Positions 18,538 to 32,205 of a stretch of 34,300 nucleotides of DNA are shown in pieces. Below the pieces are notes generated by a model, which was not told the origin of the DNA, did no database searches, and saw only the letters and a program-made list of their open reading frames with translations. Position 1 is the stretch's first letter. Each line of letters opens with the position of its first letter. The stretch covers positions 1 to 34,300 of the forward strand of contig JAUZOF010000006.1 in assembly GCA_030706585.1 (NCBI GenBank), read 5' to 3'. Source of the DNA: Bacteroidota bacterium. GTDB taxonomy: Bacteria; Bacteroidota; Bacteroidia; Bacteroidales; UBA7332. Both the position numbers and the translations under genes were made by a program.

Positions 18538-18631
18538 CAAACTGGGATAGATTAGGGGAATTTTCCCGTAAATTTTGCCCCTGGAAAATTCCGAAGTCAA
18601 AATAAACCGTCAATTTCCCCTCTGGCTGGAT

Positions 18632-18708
18632 TCCGGGTCTCAAAAAACAGTTTTTTTTGAGGCTGGCGCGCGCCAGAGGCAAAAAAAACTCTTTTTTGAG
18701 ACTCCGGA
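18632..18708. repeat. ~77-nt near-perfect inverted repeat centred on CTGGCGCGCGCCAG
   Basis: Left tccgggtctcaaaaaacagttttttttgaggctggcgcg against the reverse complement of the right arm tccggagtctcaaaaaagagttttttttgcctctggcgcg: about 4 mismatches and one bulge. Confidence 0.85.
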
Positions 18709-18896
18709 TTTTCCCGGACACGAAAAAAAACGTTTGGGGAGACGTTGGAATTAGCCAGAGAGAAAAAAAACGAAAAATTCCGACATCCGGATTTTCCAGA
18801 GACCAATTTTCCCGTTTCGATTTAGCCTAAACCCATCCAGAGAGGATGATAATGATTGAAAATCTCATTTTTGTTTAACTGATAAAGAAAAAAACT

Positions 18897-19634
18897 ATGA
18901 TTGAGACATTTAATTATTCATTGTTGCCCAACGACGAATTATACACGTTGACGCAACGGGTTATGACTGCCTGCAACGGATTAAATCTGACAGATGCTTC
19001 GCCAGTGAAGCCTTTGATCAATGCCGCAGGAAATGCTTTTGAGAAATTTGACCTTGCTTTTAAGCGGGAAAGTAAAAACAGTTCCACCCCGATTCTTCGG
19101 AATCTGGATGAGATCAGAGACGAAGGTTTTCTGGCGTTCCGATTCTGCACGGAAGCCTGGAGCCACCGTGCCAATACTGAAAAACGGGAAGCTGCCCTGA
19201 AGATTCTCTCCGTGATCCGTCGGTACGACTGGAGTGCTCATGCGCTGGGCGACAAAGCCGAAACGGCGGCTTTGGCCAATCTGATCAAAGACCTCCGTAA
19301 CAATTATGCTGCTGAAATGACACTTCTGACTCTTTCGGAGTGGTTCGAGGAGATGGAGACAGCTCAGGTTGCGTATGAAAAGGGAGTTACCGAAAGCGCA
19401 GCCAACGCGCCTACCGACTTACCGACGCTGACGATTACCCGTCCGGATCTGATCAAGGCATTGAAAAATCTCTTCTCTCTGATCTCCCTGCTCGAACCTT
19501 CAATGCCGGAATTCACACCTCTGATCGCCACCATCAACAACCTCATCTCCCAATCGTTCACTTCCGCCAAGGCCGCCGCGACCCGCGCTGCCAACCAGAA
19601 AGCGGAGGAGGCGAAAAAGAGTGAGGGGCAGTAA
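18897..19634 (+). CDS. Conserved hypothetical protein, DUF6261-like
   Basis: 245 aa mostly helical protein; the family name is from recollection of the sequence style (MIETFNYSLLPNDEL...) and was not verified. Confidence 0.6.
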   Translation: MIETFNYSLLPNDELYTLTQRVMTACNGLNLTDASPVKPLINAAGNAFEKFDLAFKRESKNSSTPILRNLDEIRDEGFLAFRFCTEAWSHRANTEKREAALKILSVIRRYDWSAHALGDKAETAALANLIKDLRNNYAAEMTLLTLSEWFEEMETAQVAYEKGVTESAANAPTDLPTLTITRPDLIKALKNLFSLISLLEPSMPEFTPLIATINNLISQSFTSAKAAATRAANQKAEEAKKSEGQ

Positions 19635-27571: not shown

Positions 27572-28555
27572 TTAGTTTAGTTCTTTCAATAAGTTAGTCA
27601 GGTAAGGATATTCCTTGAAACCCTCCTCACCCAGCAGCGAATTAATATTGCGGATGGCTTTCGGAATCATGTCGATGAAATATTGCTTCTTCTCAATCAA
27701 GCCACGGAAGCCACCGGCACCCAACACCTGCAACAGGCGAAACAGGGCAAAGTGTCTCAATCGCTCACGGAAAGCAGCATCATCCACCGGACGATATTTG
27801 CGTAAAGAAGTCAGATAAGAATCAATCAGCAAATCAGTCATTTCAGCTGAATAGTGAGCCTCAACCTGCCAAATAAATGACGCCACATCGTAATAGACCT
27901 GTCCACGGCGACCGCCTTGAAAATCGATAAACCACGGTTCTCCGTCTTTAACAATCACATTGCGCGATTGGAAATCACGATACAGGAAAACATCGTTTTC
28001 TTCAGCTTCAAGCAGATCCGCCATGATTTCGAACTCATCTTCCAGGGTATTTTCACTAAATGCGACACCGTAAGGGCGCAGGAAACAATATTTGAAATAA
28101 TTCAAATCCCAGAAGATGCAACGACGGTCAAACTCCGCCCGGGGAAAACAAACTGAATAATCGAGTCCTTCGGCTCCTTTCACCTGAACATCGGCAAGAG
28201 CAGCCATTGTTTTGCACAGAATCTCTTTTTCATCTGCCGAATAATTATTGGCTTCACGACCTTTGGCTACATAATCAAACAGGGCCAGGTCGCCTAAATC
28301 CTGCTGAATGTAATGCATCCGATCCTCTGAAACGGCATATAACGCTGGAATCGGAAGTCCTTTTCCATTAAAATGTTGTGCGAGATAGATGAACGCCTCA
28401 TTTTCCACAGTTGATTCACCACGCGTACCAATGCAAGAATTTTTCTCACCGATCAGGCGCACATAAAAGCGGTTTGATCCGGAACCGGGAATGGCTTCGG
28501 TCGTTTTCAGCGGTTCGCCAAAGTAGTTTTCAAATAGTTGTTTTAGTTTCTCCAT
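27572..28555 (-). CDS. Phosphotransferase (APH/choline kinase fold), AmgK-like sugar kinase
   Basis: VFLYRDFQSRNVIVKDGEPWFIDFQGGRRGQVYYDVASF: APH catalytic and metal-binding loops. Start placed at MEKLKQLFENYFG (28555), since the 28612 start runs into a repeat element. Confidence 0.87.
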   Translation of the reverse strand: MEKLKQLFENYFGEPLKTTEAIPGSGSNRFYVRLIGEKNSCIGTRGESTVENEAFIYLAQHFNGKGLPIPALYAVSEDRMHYIQQDLGDLALFDYVAKGREANNYSADEKEILCKTMAALADVQVKGAEGLDYSVCFPRAEFDRRCIFWDLNYFKYCFLRPYGVAFSENTLEDEFEIMADLLEAEENDVFLYRDFQSRNVIVKDGEPWFIDFQGGRRGQVYYDVASFIWQVEAHYSAEMTDLLIDSYLTSLRKYRPVDDAAFRERLRHFALFRLLQVLGAGGFRGLIEKKQYFIDMIPKAIRNINSLLGEEGFKEYPYLTNLLKELN

Positions 28556-28569
28556 TCTGTTTTTATTTT

Positions 28570-28659
28570 TGGCACACAGATGACACAGATGCGCTGCAAC
28601 ACAGATTTCCACAGATAATCCGTGGAGATCGATTCAAATCAGTGTCATCAGTGTGCTAT
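28570..28659. repeat. Intergenic palindromic repeat, copy 1
   Basis: TGGCACACAGATGACACAGAT ... AATCAGTGTCATCAGTGTGCTA; terminal inverted match, similar to copy 2 at 29951. Confidence 0.85.
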
Positions 28660-28662
28660 TTC

Positions 28663-29937
28663 TTAAATCTTTCTTTTTCCAAAATCCTTATCCACTTTAA
28701 CCACAGCCACCCCGATAAAGGTAAATACAGTACAAAACATGACCCAAAGGAAGAAATGGGGATAGCCCAGCCATTTCTGTACTTTTCCGGCCACCATGGT
28801 CGGCAACATCATGCCCAAAGCCATAATTCCGGTGCAAATGGCGTAATGCGCCGTTTTGTATTTACCTTCGGAGAAATACATCAGGTAGACCATAAACGCG
28901 ACAAATCCAAACCCGTATCCGAATTGCTCTATAGCCACACAAGTAGAAACCGCCCACAGACTGGTTGGATAAAACTGCGATAGATAGACATAGGTCAGAT
29001 GTGGAACGTTGATCATCAATCCCATTGGCCACAACCAATATTTCAGTCCGTTGCGGGAAATAAAAACACCGCCGAGAATTCCGCCCAAAAGCAGAAAAAC
29101 GACAGATACGACTCCATACAGGAAACCTACCTCTTCCGTACTCAGACCAAGTCCGCCTGCCGATCTCTGGTCCAGCATTAACAGCTTACTGATCACCGTG
29201 ATCTGAGCTTCTCCGAAACGGTAAAACAAAATGAACAGCAGAGTTCCCCAGACTTGCTTTTTCTGGAAAAAGCTAACGAAAGTCCCTCCGAATTCTTTCA
29301 GGATATGGCTTACCGAATGTGTCTCAAGAGAGTGATCGCCGTCCGGTCTTGGCAAAGAAAACTTATGCAAAGCCAGCAGCAGAATAAAAAGTGCGGTAAA
29401 AATACCATACACGATCATCCACGCCACTTTGAGGTTTTGTGTCGTTTGCTCAATGTATCCGGCCAACATCACCAACAATCCTTGTCCGGTGATCATCGCA
29501 ATGCGGTAAGAAGTATTTCGAATGCCCATGAATGCGGCCTGATTGTGTGCCGGAAGCGCTAACATATAAAAGCCATCACAGGCGATGTCATGTGTGGCCG
29601 ATGAGAACGCCACCAAAAACAGGAAAGCAAAAGTCATTTGCACCCAATGTGTAGCATGTAAAGAGAAGGCAACTCCGGCCAATCCTACCCCAAGTATTAG
29701 CTGCATCAGAACAATCCACCAGCGCTTGGTTTTGAATATTTCCACAAAAGGGCTCCACAACGGTTTGATCACCCAGGGAAGATTGAGCCAACCGGTGTAC
29801 ATTGCGATTGTATCGTTAGCGAGTCCCAGGCGTTTGTACATGATTCCGGCCACGACCATCACCGCCACGTAGGGCAACCCTTCGGCAAAATAGAGCGAGG
29901 GAATCCAGCTCCAGGGATTTCTTGTTTTTTGTTCCAT
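28663..29937 (-). CDS. MFS transporter, AmpG-like muropeptide/sugar permease
   Basis: 424 aa with ~12 hydrophobic segments; SLYFAEGLPYVAVMVVAGIMYKRLG N-terminus as in AmpG-type PF07690 proteins; genomic context. Confidence 0.87.
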   Translation of the reverse strand: MEQKTRNPWSWIPSLYFAEGLPYVAVMVVAGIMYKRLGLANDTIAMYTGWLNLPWVIKPLWSPFVEIFKTKRWWIVLMQLILGVGLAGVAFSLHATHWVQMTFAFLFLVAFSSATHDIACDGFYMLALPAHNQAAFMGIRNTSYRIAMITGQGLLVMLAGYIEQTTQNLKVAWMIVYGIFTALFILLLALHKFSLPRPDGDHSLETHSVSHILKEFGGTFVSFFQKKQVWGTLLFILFYRFGEAQITVISKLLMLDQRSAGGLGLSTEEVGFLYGVVSVVFLLLGGILGGVFISRNGLKYWLWPMGLMINVPHLTYVYLSQFYPTSLWAVSTCVAIEQFGYGFGFVAFMVYLMYFSEGKYKTAHYAICTGIMALGMMLPTMVAGKVQKWLGYPHFFLWVMFCTVFTFIGVAVVKVDKDFGKRKI

Positions 29938-29950
29938 TTCTTGTTTTTAT

Positions 29951-30044
29951 TGGCACACTGATAACACAGATGCAAGCAACACAGATTTTCACAGATCTTT
30001 CTTATCAGTGAAAATCGATCCAAATCTGTGTCATCTGTGTGCTA
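29951..30044. repeat. Intergenic palindromic repeat, copy 2
   Basis: TGGCACACTGATAACACAGATGCAAGCAACACAGATTTTCACAGAT...ATCAGTGAAAATCGATCCAAATCTGTGTCATCTGTGTGCTA. Confidence 0.85.
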
Positions 30045-30052
30045 CAATTTTC

Positions 30053-31375
30053 TCAATATTTTTTCTCCAAAGCCACATCCCGATAGTAATGCAGCAAAAT
30101 ATCACGGTACGAATAACCTTTGTCCCCCATCACGGCAGCGCCAATCTGGCAAAGGCCGACACCATGCCCCCACCCTGCTCCAGTGAGGGTAAAACTTTCG
30201 GGAATAGCATTTTCACCCATAGATTTATCCACGACAAAGGCTGAACTATACAAGTGTGACCCCGAAAGCGATTTGCGAATGAGCAATTCTTTGCCGATTA
30301 CTAATGTCTTTTTCGTACCCACAATGCGTAGTTTTATTAATCTGCCTGAAACGCCCCGCTCCATCGGTTGCAAATCTATAATTTCTCCGAAATCAATTCC
30401 CGTGCGACGACGAATCAGATCTGATATTTCCGATTGAGAATAAGTAACCGTCCAGCGATAAAAGTCGGCTGTCTCCTGATCGTAATTGTTAAGCACCTGA
30501 CTCAGCACTTTTGCATCTTGCGTATTACAGAAGGCGTCCGGCGAAGTGCGAATCCACTTCTCGGCTTCAGCTTCGATGGTCAGGTCGGGCGTGTCGGATA
30601 TAGCGTTTTCGGCACGGTCAAAAACCTTTTGCAGATAAGGATGCGAAGCCGGTTCCCAGCAATTATCGAACTTTTCAAGTACGCCACCGCAACACTTCGA
30701 GAAACGGGCATCACAAATGGCATTATCAGAAATCAGGAGTTCCCCCCGTGTTGCTTCCACGGCTTCCACCACCTTTTCGGTCGATGCGCGGGTGATACCC
30801 TGGTAGCGCTGGCAATGATCGTCGGCACAGACATCGTACAACAGATGATCCTCGCGGTCCCACCACTTGATCCATTCGGTTTCGGTCTGCGTATCCGAAA
30901 CATACGTGACCGATTTTGCCGCCAGATCATTCTTCTTGGCCAACTGCGACAGCAACCAGCTTCGAGAAATGACGGCATGAGCTTTCAGCAGTTCAGGCGA
31001 ACTGGTCGCACTCATCTCAGACGAAATCACGCTTTTGAGATACTCCTCCACCGGAATCAGATTGACGGCAGTGATTTTGTGATTTTCCTGAATCAGTTTG
31101 AGCGAGCCACGAAACGACTGCACCTCTTTGCGCTCCCAATGGAAACCGATACCAATCACCACTTCTTTCAACGTAAATGAAGCATCGTCAGAAGCGGGCT
31201 GAAAAGTCACTTCATCGTAAAATTTACCATTGAAAATGATTTTGGCATCAATCAGATAGGCGGTATAATCGCCGGGATGAAGCTCTTCTGCTCCATTCAG
31301 CAGGTATTTTCCCTGAAAAGAAAACGGAATCTCAATGTCGGAGACTATGCCGACGGAAAGTATGGGTTCTAGCAT
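30053..31375 (-). CDS. SpoIID/LytB domain-containing protein
   Basis: VEEYLKSVISSEMSATSSPELLKAHAVISRSWLL and GWGHGVGLCQIGAAVMGDKGYSYRDILLHYY: SpoIID signatures. Confidence 0.92.
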   Translation of the reverse strand: MLEPILSVGIVSDIEIPFSFQGKYLLNGAEELHPGDYTAYLIDAKIIFNGKFYDEVTFQPASDDASFTLKEVVIGIGFHWERKEVQSFRGSLKLIQENHKITAVNLIPVEEYLKSVISSEMSATSSPELLKAHAVISRSWLLSQLAKKNDLAAKSVTYVSDTQTETEWIKWWDREDHLLYDVCADDHCQRYQGITRASTEKVVEAVEATRGELLISDNAICDARFSKCCGGVLEKFDNCWEPASHPYLQKVFDRAENAISDTPDLTIEAEAEKWIRTSPDAFCNTQDAKVLSQVLNNYDQETADFYRWTVTYSQSEISDLIRRRTGIDFGEIIDLQPMERGVSGRLIKLRIVGTKKTLVIGKELLIRKSLSGSHLYSSAFVVDKSMGENAIPESFTLTGAGWGHGVGLCQIGAAVMGDKGYSYRDILLHYYRDVALEKKY

Positions 31376-31570
31376 GGATCAATGTTATGAAGAAAGTCAG
31401 GAAAATGGATTTCGAATACTCATTCATTCAATCCATCTATCCTTTGCTCCTTTTATTTGAGGTGCAAATATAACGAATCAAGAGGGGATTTTAAGATTAA
31501 AAACGGGAAGTTGACGGAATAATTCAGCTCTAAATGAATGGAATCTAATTTTCAGCCGTTGAAGGGCTGC

Positions 31571-31831
31571 CTGTAAAAATCTAAAAGATAAAAGTTACGG
31601 TTGAAAACCATCCTATAAAATTATAGACTCATTTTCTGTCGGTTGAAAGACCCCTATAAATTTATAGATTCAAGATTTTCCATTATAAGGTCGCCTATAA
31701 ATTTATAGGACCATTTCCAACTACATTTTTTAAGCCTATAAAATTATAGCGTTAAATTCGGCGGTCAATTTTAACGCTATAATTTTATAGGACAAATTTC
31801 AATCGCCGAAATCCGATCTATAATTTTACAG
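31571..31831. repeat. Regular array of 14-bp AT-rich palindromes at exact 41-bp period
   Basis: CTATAAAATTATAG 31613, CTATAAATTTATAG 31654, CTATAAATTTATAG 31695, CTATAAAATTATAG 31736, CTATAATTTTATAG 31777, CTATAATTTTACAG 31818, plus degenerate CTGTAAAAATCTAA at 31571; 27-nt spacers with a degenerate TTTTCgrCGGTtgAAA core. Confidence 0.92.
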
Positions 31832-31977
31832 GATGATTTTCGACGGTCAAAAATCATATTCCGTAAGCTTAGAATCCAATTCCATTCATGCATTTCCACC
31901 AATATCATTTACAGCTAATGATTTTAAATCCAATTGCTACAATACAATCCGATTCATTTCCAAATTAAATCGTCGGA

Positions 31978-32007
31978 TTTGATTTCCGGAAATAATCGTT
32001 ACCTTTG
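31978..32007 (+). promoter_or_regulatory. Bacteroidetes-type promoter for the riboswitch/TonB receptor transcript
   Basis: TTTG (31978..31981) - 18 nt - TACCTTTG (32000..32007). Confidence 0.75.
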
Positions 32008-32009
32008 CA

Positions 32010-32205
32010 ACCGCTTTGGTTCCGAAGCCGCATTCGCGGTCGAGGATGAAAAGGGAATCCGGTGAGAATCCGGAACAGTCCCGCTGCTGTAAGCTTCACC
32101 AAACGTTTGGGCAAAACTTTCGCCACTGTCATGCGACGGGAAGGCCGCCCCAAACGGAAGTAAGTCAGAAGACCTGCCACGGCAACGTTAGTTCAAAAGC
32201 TTTCG
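32010..32205 (+). ncRNA. Cobalamin (adenosylcobalamin) riboswitch
   Basis: GGGAATCCGGTGAGAATCCGGAACAGTCCCGCTGCTGTAAG ... GCCACTG ... GGGAAGGC ... AAGTCAGAAGACCTGCC (B12 box). Confidence 0.95.

Follow-up and report, generated by a model that had tools for sequence, protein, structure and literature searches.

The window analysed here, a stretch of 34,300 nucleotides, contains an intergenic row of short palindromes that recur at a constant distance, and the question is what kind of element this is and what maintains it. The array occupies positions 31571-31872 and consists of six clear units and one decayed unit; neither it nor its repeats have an assigned strand. On its left is a divergently oriented gene for a SpoIID-domain protein (30053-31375, minus strand; PF08486, E=3.9e-24), and on its right is a cobalamin riboswitch (32000-32195, plus strand) that is 99% identical in the sister species (hereafter G001). 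The preliminary description reported six palindromes in exact steps of 41 bp and a degenerate seventh near 31571, and both are confirmed. The palindromes are 14 bp long (CTATAAWWTTATAG) and start at 31613, 31654, 31695, 31736, 31777, and 31818, so that every step is 41 bp, a distance that corresponds to about four helical turns. Five of the six match CTATAAWWTTATAG exactly, namely palindromes 1 and 4 (CTATAAAATTATAG, 31613-31626 and 31736-31749), palindromes 2 and 3 (CTATAAATTTATAG, 31654-31667 and 31695-31708), and palindrome 5 (CTATAATTTTATAG, 31777-31790). The sixth (CTATAATTTTACAG, 31818-31831) has one mismatch and is perfect in G001, where the orthologous array on contig C10 shows 85% identity with one 1-bp indel. 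The decayed site at 31571 (CTGTAAAAATCTAA) is off the register by one base, and its orthologue in G001 is CTGTAAATTCTGAG.

The 27-bp spacers are related to each other through a decayed core, as had been proposed. In arrays of this type (CTATAA arrays), a spacer comprises four variable nucleotides, the dyad-symmetric core WWWWTcAAC-S-GTTgAWWWW, whose centre lies 27 bp past each palindrome start, and four more variable nucleotides. Palindromes 4 and 5, together with the arms of their common spacer, form a perfect inverted repeat (31735-31791), in which 31735-31756 pairs with 31770-31791 across a 13-nt gap; the stem noted earlier is thus present, with 22 perfect pairs and not the approximately 24 bp suggested. 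A possible outer inverted repeat of 23 nt (31534-31556 and 31867-31889, together spanning 31534-31889) is imperfect, with 78% complementarity, and is probably no true terminal repeat, given the poor conservation of its right-hand half in G001. A coding origin of the array is ruled out by stops in all six frames, the longest open run being 32 codons. Tandem Repeats Finder did not detect the array, since the likeness between units is confined to the 14-mers.

Searching the genome and its relatives by BLAST placed CTATAA arrays at only three loci of the window's own genome (G000, a draft assembly of 834 contigs): the window array and two further arrays, on contigs C157 and C2. In G001 the window array and the C2 array are retained at orthologous positions, two loci out of the three, and there was no match in the other 57 genomes of the search. 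The exact two-site pattern likewise gave no match in GTDB genomes or IMG/VR contigs, collections from which close records may be missing. Compared through a conserved protein, an uncultured Bacteroidales bacterium and a Paludibacter MAG are the closest named genomes, so that the host most likely belongs to the Bacteroidales.

The 41-bp period itself recurs with other palindromes. The window contains a second 41-bp array (18540-18870, no strand assigned) of the CTGG..CCAG / CCGG type with AAAAAACnGTTTTTT spacers; it lies just upstream of a DUF6261 gene (18897-19634), and its orthologue is at 114.9-115.3 kb of G001 C10. In a genome of another family (G065), a profile search found CTGCAAAATTGCAG with the spacer core AATTGACGGTCAATTTT at a 41-bp period and with the same offset as in the window array, such that the core RACSGTY is common to the arrays of both families and lies 27 bp from the palindrome start in each. 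A genome of a third family (G276) contains CCRCAnAnnTGYGG at 41 bp, and an autocorrelation scan found more 41-bp arrays in G001 and G065 that are built on CTACA..TGTAG, CTGCA..TGCAG, and TCCCGG palindromes. Palindrome types can also change within a locus while the register is kept: at the C2/C15 locus, CTGG-type units run on into CTATAA-type units, and at 57.1-57.8 kb of G001 C2, CTACA..TGTAG units are followed in register by CTGCA..TGCAG units. Three candidates were rejected. A profile match in G062 (L022) contained no array on inspection, weak period-41 signals in G002 (62 kb) resemble noise from AT-rich DNA, and a palindrome pair in G384 has a spacing of 42 bp and lies inside a 21-bp array. 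The literature that we searched contains no account of 41-bp arrays of palindromes from this group. Dispersed repeats of other kinds were also seen: one of about 109 bp (L170 13209-13317), possibly a MITE, is represented in G000 by roughly twenty or more copies that are 70-86% alike, and the window segments 28551-28683 and 29933-30044 each resemble, at 76-78% identity, the surroundings of the other one in the G001 orthologue, as a small dispersed repeat.

Arrays with a regular period are abundant. With the detector at one setting, 50 intergenic periodic arrays were found in a 1.19-Mb sample of G001, compared with about 4 per shuffled sample; the array densities come from such genome samples. 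The period is 20-23, 40-44, 61-65, or 81-86 bp in 40 of these arrays (p=9e-19), and when periods divisible by three are excluded, 19 of 27 are still near n x 21 bp (p=1e-7). Ten of the 50 form a 41/82-bp class that is distinct from the 21/42/63-bp one: these 41-type arrays give z scores of 26 and 22 at lags 41 and 82, about 2.5 at lags 40 and 42 (2.4 at 42), and -0.6 at lag 21, and the signal at lags 10, 31, and 52, which stand for single helical turns, is slight at most. Clear palindromy is a feature of roughly half of the phased arrays; the other half lack it. Period-23 arrays are also present in G001. Samples of named Bacteroidales show an excess at 21, 42, 63, and 84 bp, in which unannotated coding DNA adds signal at multiples of three. 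Arrays with a 21-bp period occur in other families or genera of the order, with AGAACGTGTTCT motifs in G384 (L117 1340-1640) and ATACGTAT in G003 (L137 and L139). In three G001 arrays with a period of approximately 21-23 bp (C1 301458-301980, C1 377956-378180, and C2 345242-345470), successive palindromes differ in their stems and keep their complementarity, as if palindromy itself were retained.

The comparison of G000 and G001 indicates how the arrays change. Array DNA (1933 bp) has accumulated 271 substitutions and one 1-bp indel, whereas other intergenic DNA at the aligned array loci (7349 bp) has 489 substitutions and 46 indels; this depletion of indels (odds ratio 25, p=8e-8) is calculated from only two close genomes, for loci taken from the scan and array edges chosen by the analyst, and with whole-unit gaps that split BLAST alignments omitted from the counts. 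Coding DNA at the same loci contains 3650 substitutions and 5 indels. The length of the arrays, which are not coding, is thus maintained almost as strictly as that of coding DNA. The idea that they are better conserved in sequence than other intergenic DNA is rejected, since they diverge faster (14% vs 7%); as judged from these alignments, it is the spacing of the arrays that is conserved more than their sequence. The conservation of palindromes against drifting spacers, put forward previously, is borne out, but to a modest degree (91.7% vs 86.7%, p=0.014). Apart from the 1-bp indel, the changes in length that were seen are by whole units: the two copies of one orthologous array differ in length by 205 bp, which is 5 x 41 and thus exactly five units, and the unit number is also altered between the species at C93. 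A CTACA-type 41-bp array is whole in G001 (C2 69125-69399; L181 9125-9399) and absent at G000 C115:7038, where the junction is clean and lies beside a terminator-like hairpin, with no clear target-site duplication at this one locus. Since one array can be wholly present in one species and missing in the other, no given array is indispensable. Finally, three-base inversions (AAA<->TTT) inside the palindromes distinguish some orthologues, for example CTGCATTTTGCAC and CTGCAAAATGCAC; these loop-triplet inversions, small in number, suggest template switching at hairpins.

The genes around the arrays have little in common. Gene pairs flanking the 40 phased G001 arrays are divergent, convergent, and co-directional, and this occurrence in all orientations argues against a general role as promoter, terminator, or UTR. 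The 66 array-flanking proteins hit 109 Pfam families, none of which was found in more than two members. A shared neighbour gene was considered and rejected as an explanation: two DUF6261 proteins and several unnamed proteins of approximately 240 aa adjoin arrays, and the rest are left unexplained. At L166 19216-19947, L194 3743-4483, and L102 14149-14886, the immediate neighbour of a phased array is a protein of about 245 aa, either DUF6261 or unnamed.

The window array is therefore a member of a dispersed intergenic class whose common trait is the spacing of dyad sites and not a sequence. For this class it is observed that the period is exact, that arrays are dispersed and have orthologues, that the palindrome type can change in register, and that indels are depleted. 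As the best explanation, which we put forward tentatively, the arrays may serve a dimeric protein of nucleoid type as phased DNA platforms and may spread in part as minisatellites do. An array would act as double-stranded DNA, with its symmetric sites, on about one face of the helix, cooperatively loading a dimeric protein of nucleoid type that mainly reads shape; the loaded protein would then organise or insulate the intergenic region. The spacing would be selected because symmetric sites must sit on nearly the same helix face, so substitutions would be tolerated, a one-base shift would not, and the unit number would move by whole units. New units would probably originate from tandem duplication and from template switching at the palindromes. 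This explanation is supported by the depletion of indels, by the length difference of exactly five units, by the recurrence of the 41-bp period with unrelated palindromes in G000, G001, and two other families, by the in-register switches of palindrome type, by the periods near n x 21 bp and the sharp peaks at lags 41 and 82, by the spacer core common to the window array and arrays of another family, and by the diversity of the flanking genes in all orientations. The letters change and the spacing almost never does, an indication that it is the spacing that the cell reads; selection on phasing, as proposed in the preliminary description, gains support from the near absence of indels while substitutions build up. 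What counts against the platform explanation is that no single sequence is common to all arrays, that a whole array can be missing from one of the species, that the binding protein is a predicted one, and that the palindromes are just modestly better conserved than the spacers. A single sequence-specific protein that binds all arrays is unlikely because the palindromes vary from array to array. Phased A-tract DNA, which is intrinsically curved, is described as having a periodicity linked to the helical repeat (PMC3940949), and the period of the arrays is similarly tied to it. However, the arrays are strong only at 41 and 82 bp, or at multiples of 21 bp, with almost nothing at lags 10, 31, and 52; simple A-tract curvature does not fit, since the 41-bp arrays are silent at 21 bp and weak at single turns.

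The main rival, possible though doubtful, is that the arrays are non-functional or selfish hairpin minisatellites or MITEs, which expand by template switching and tandem duplication and copy themselves to new intergenic sites, the period being simply the inherited unit length. Arrays of one type at several loci, the presence or absence of one array between species with a clean junction, the whole-unit changes in unit number, and the AAA<->TTT inversions, which hairpin template switching would give, are all in its favour. There is also a precedent in the same order: BrickBuilt, a MITE of Porphyromonas gingivalis (Bacteroidales), contains intergenic arrays of 23-nt units, that is, a minisatellite within a MITE (PMC4596501), and is comparable to the period-23 arrays of G001. 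However, BrickBuilt has one repeat sequence and a leader and a tail with terminal inverted repeats, and no such ends are established here, where neither clearly conserved terminal repeats (window vs G001) nor a clear target-site duplication (one locus) was seen. Moreover, small indels should accumulate in a neutral repeat no less often than in the DNA around it, which is not the case for the arrays, and random unit lengths would not be expected to give one exact period for unrelated sequences in different families. REP/BIME elements are described as intergenic palindromic units that form regularly spaced arrays, are dispersed genome-wide, and are binding sites for several host proteins (PMC2817692). 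The arrays here are also palindromic, intergenic, arranged in rows, and dispersed, but REPs have one family sequence per genome, whereas here the sequence varies between arrays and the base-exact spacing is kept. In fact, no single high-copy unit sequence was found, as CTATAA occurs at three loci and the other arrays have other palindromes.

It is improbable that the arrays work as structured RNA, that is, as transcribed chains of hairpins that protect, terminate, or regulate an mRNA. The predicted folding of both strands is indeed much stronger than that of shuffled sequence (z about -10 and -9), and a family of multi-hairpin elements had been proposed, of which the dispersal and the dyad symmetry are found. 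However, the strong folding follows from the repeated dyad symmetry, and permuting the spacers leaves the folding energy unchanged in most arrays, so their order is irrelevant there. Stem-loops within spacers, also mentioned earlier, exist as a few near-perfect palindromes but are not general, because pairing between the arms of a spacer (0.450) is no better than between arms exchanged among units (0.428 +/- 0.022). These results reject a designed global fold beyond the dyad repeats. In addition, nothing but the neighbouring cobalamin riboswitch reaches a family cut-off in the Rfam scan, arrays lie both between convergent and between divergent genes, and RNA hairpins would not need base-exact spacing.

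Slightly less probable again is a tandem operator through which a specific regulator would act on the SpoIID-type gene and on the gene behind the B12 riboswitch; the window array is in a divergent intergenic region and its orthologue is at the same place, but CTATAA arrays also have unrelated neighbours: one of them, for instance, is flanked by convergent genes and has a prismane-family gene at its side. A CRISPR array, a plasmid iteron, or a chromosomal origin or partition site is extremely improbable in spite of the short palindromic repeats at regular distance, because the spacers are alike, being diverged copies of one core, the repeats are just 14 bp long and partly decay or switch type in register, no Cas match was found among the ten main window proteins scanned with Pfam, and 41-bp arrays, about ten in a quarter of the sister genome, are more numerous than an origin or partition locus would be. 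The preliminary description was right to set CRISPR aside, and its suggestion of an origin or partition site is unlikely for the last of these reasons.

To our knowledge, the bacterial intergenic repeats known so far are recognised via their sequence, whereas here the spacing is far better kept, at many loci with unrelated sequences. For the same reason, namely that spacing and not sequence is kept, the class escapes homology searches and tandem-repeat finders. In its most general form the idea is somewhat unlikely: these lineages might carry on the order of at least 100 intergenic arrays per genome, in which a conserved distance between dyad sites (41 bp in one class, 21/42 bp in the other), with the site sequence drifting, would be a code of spacing instead of sequence, read by a putative DNA-organising protein. 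If true, this would be a phasing signal in bacterial intergenic DNA, and the arrays would be ready baits for the protein that reads it.
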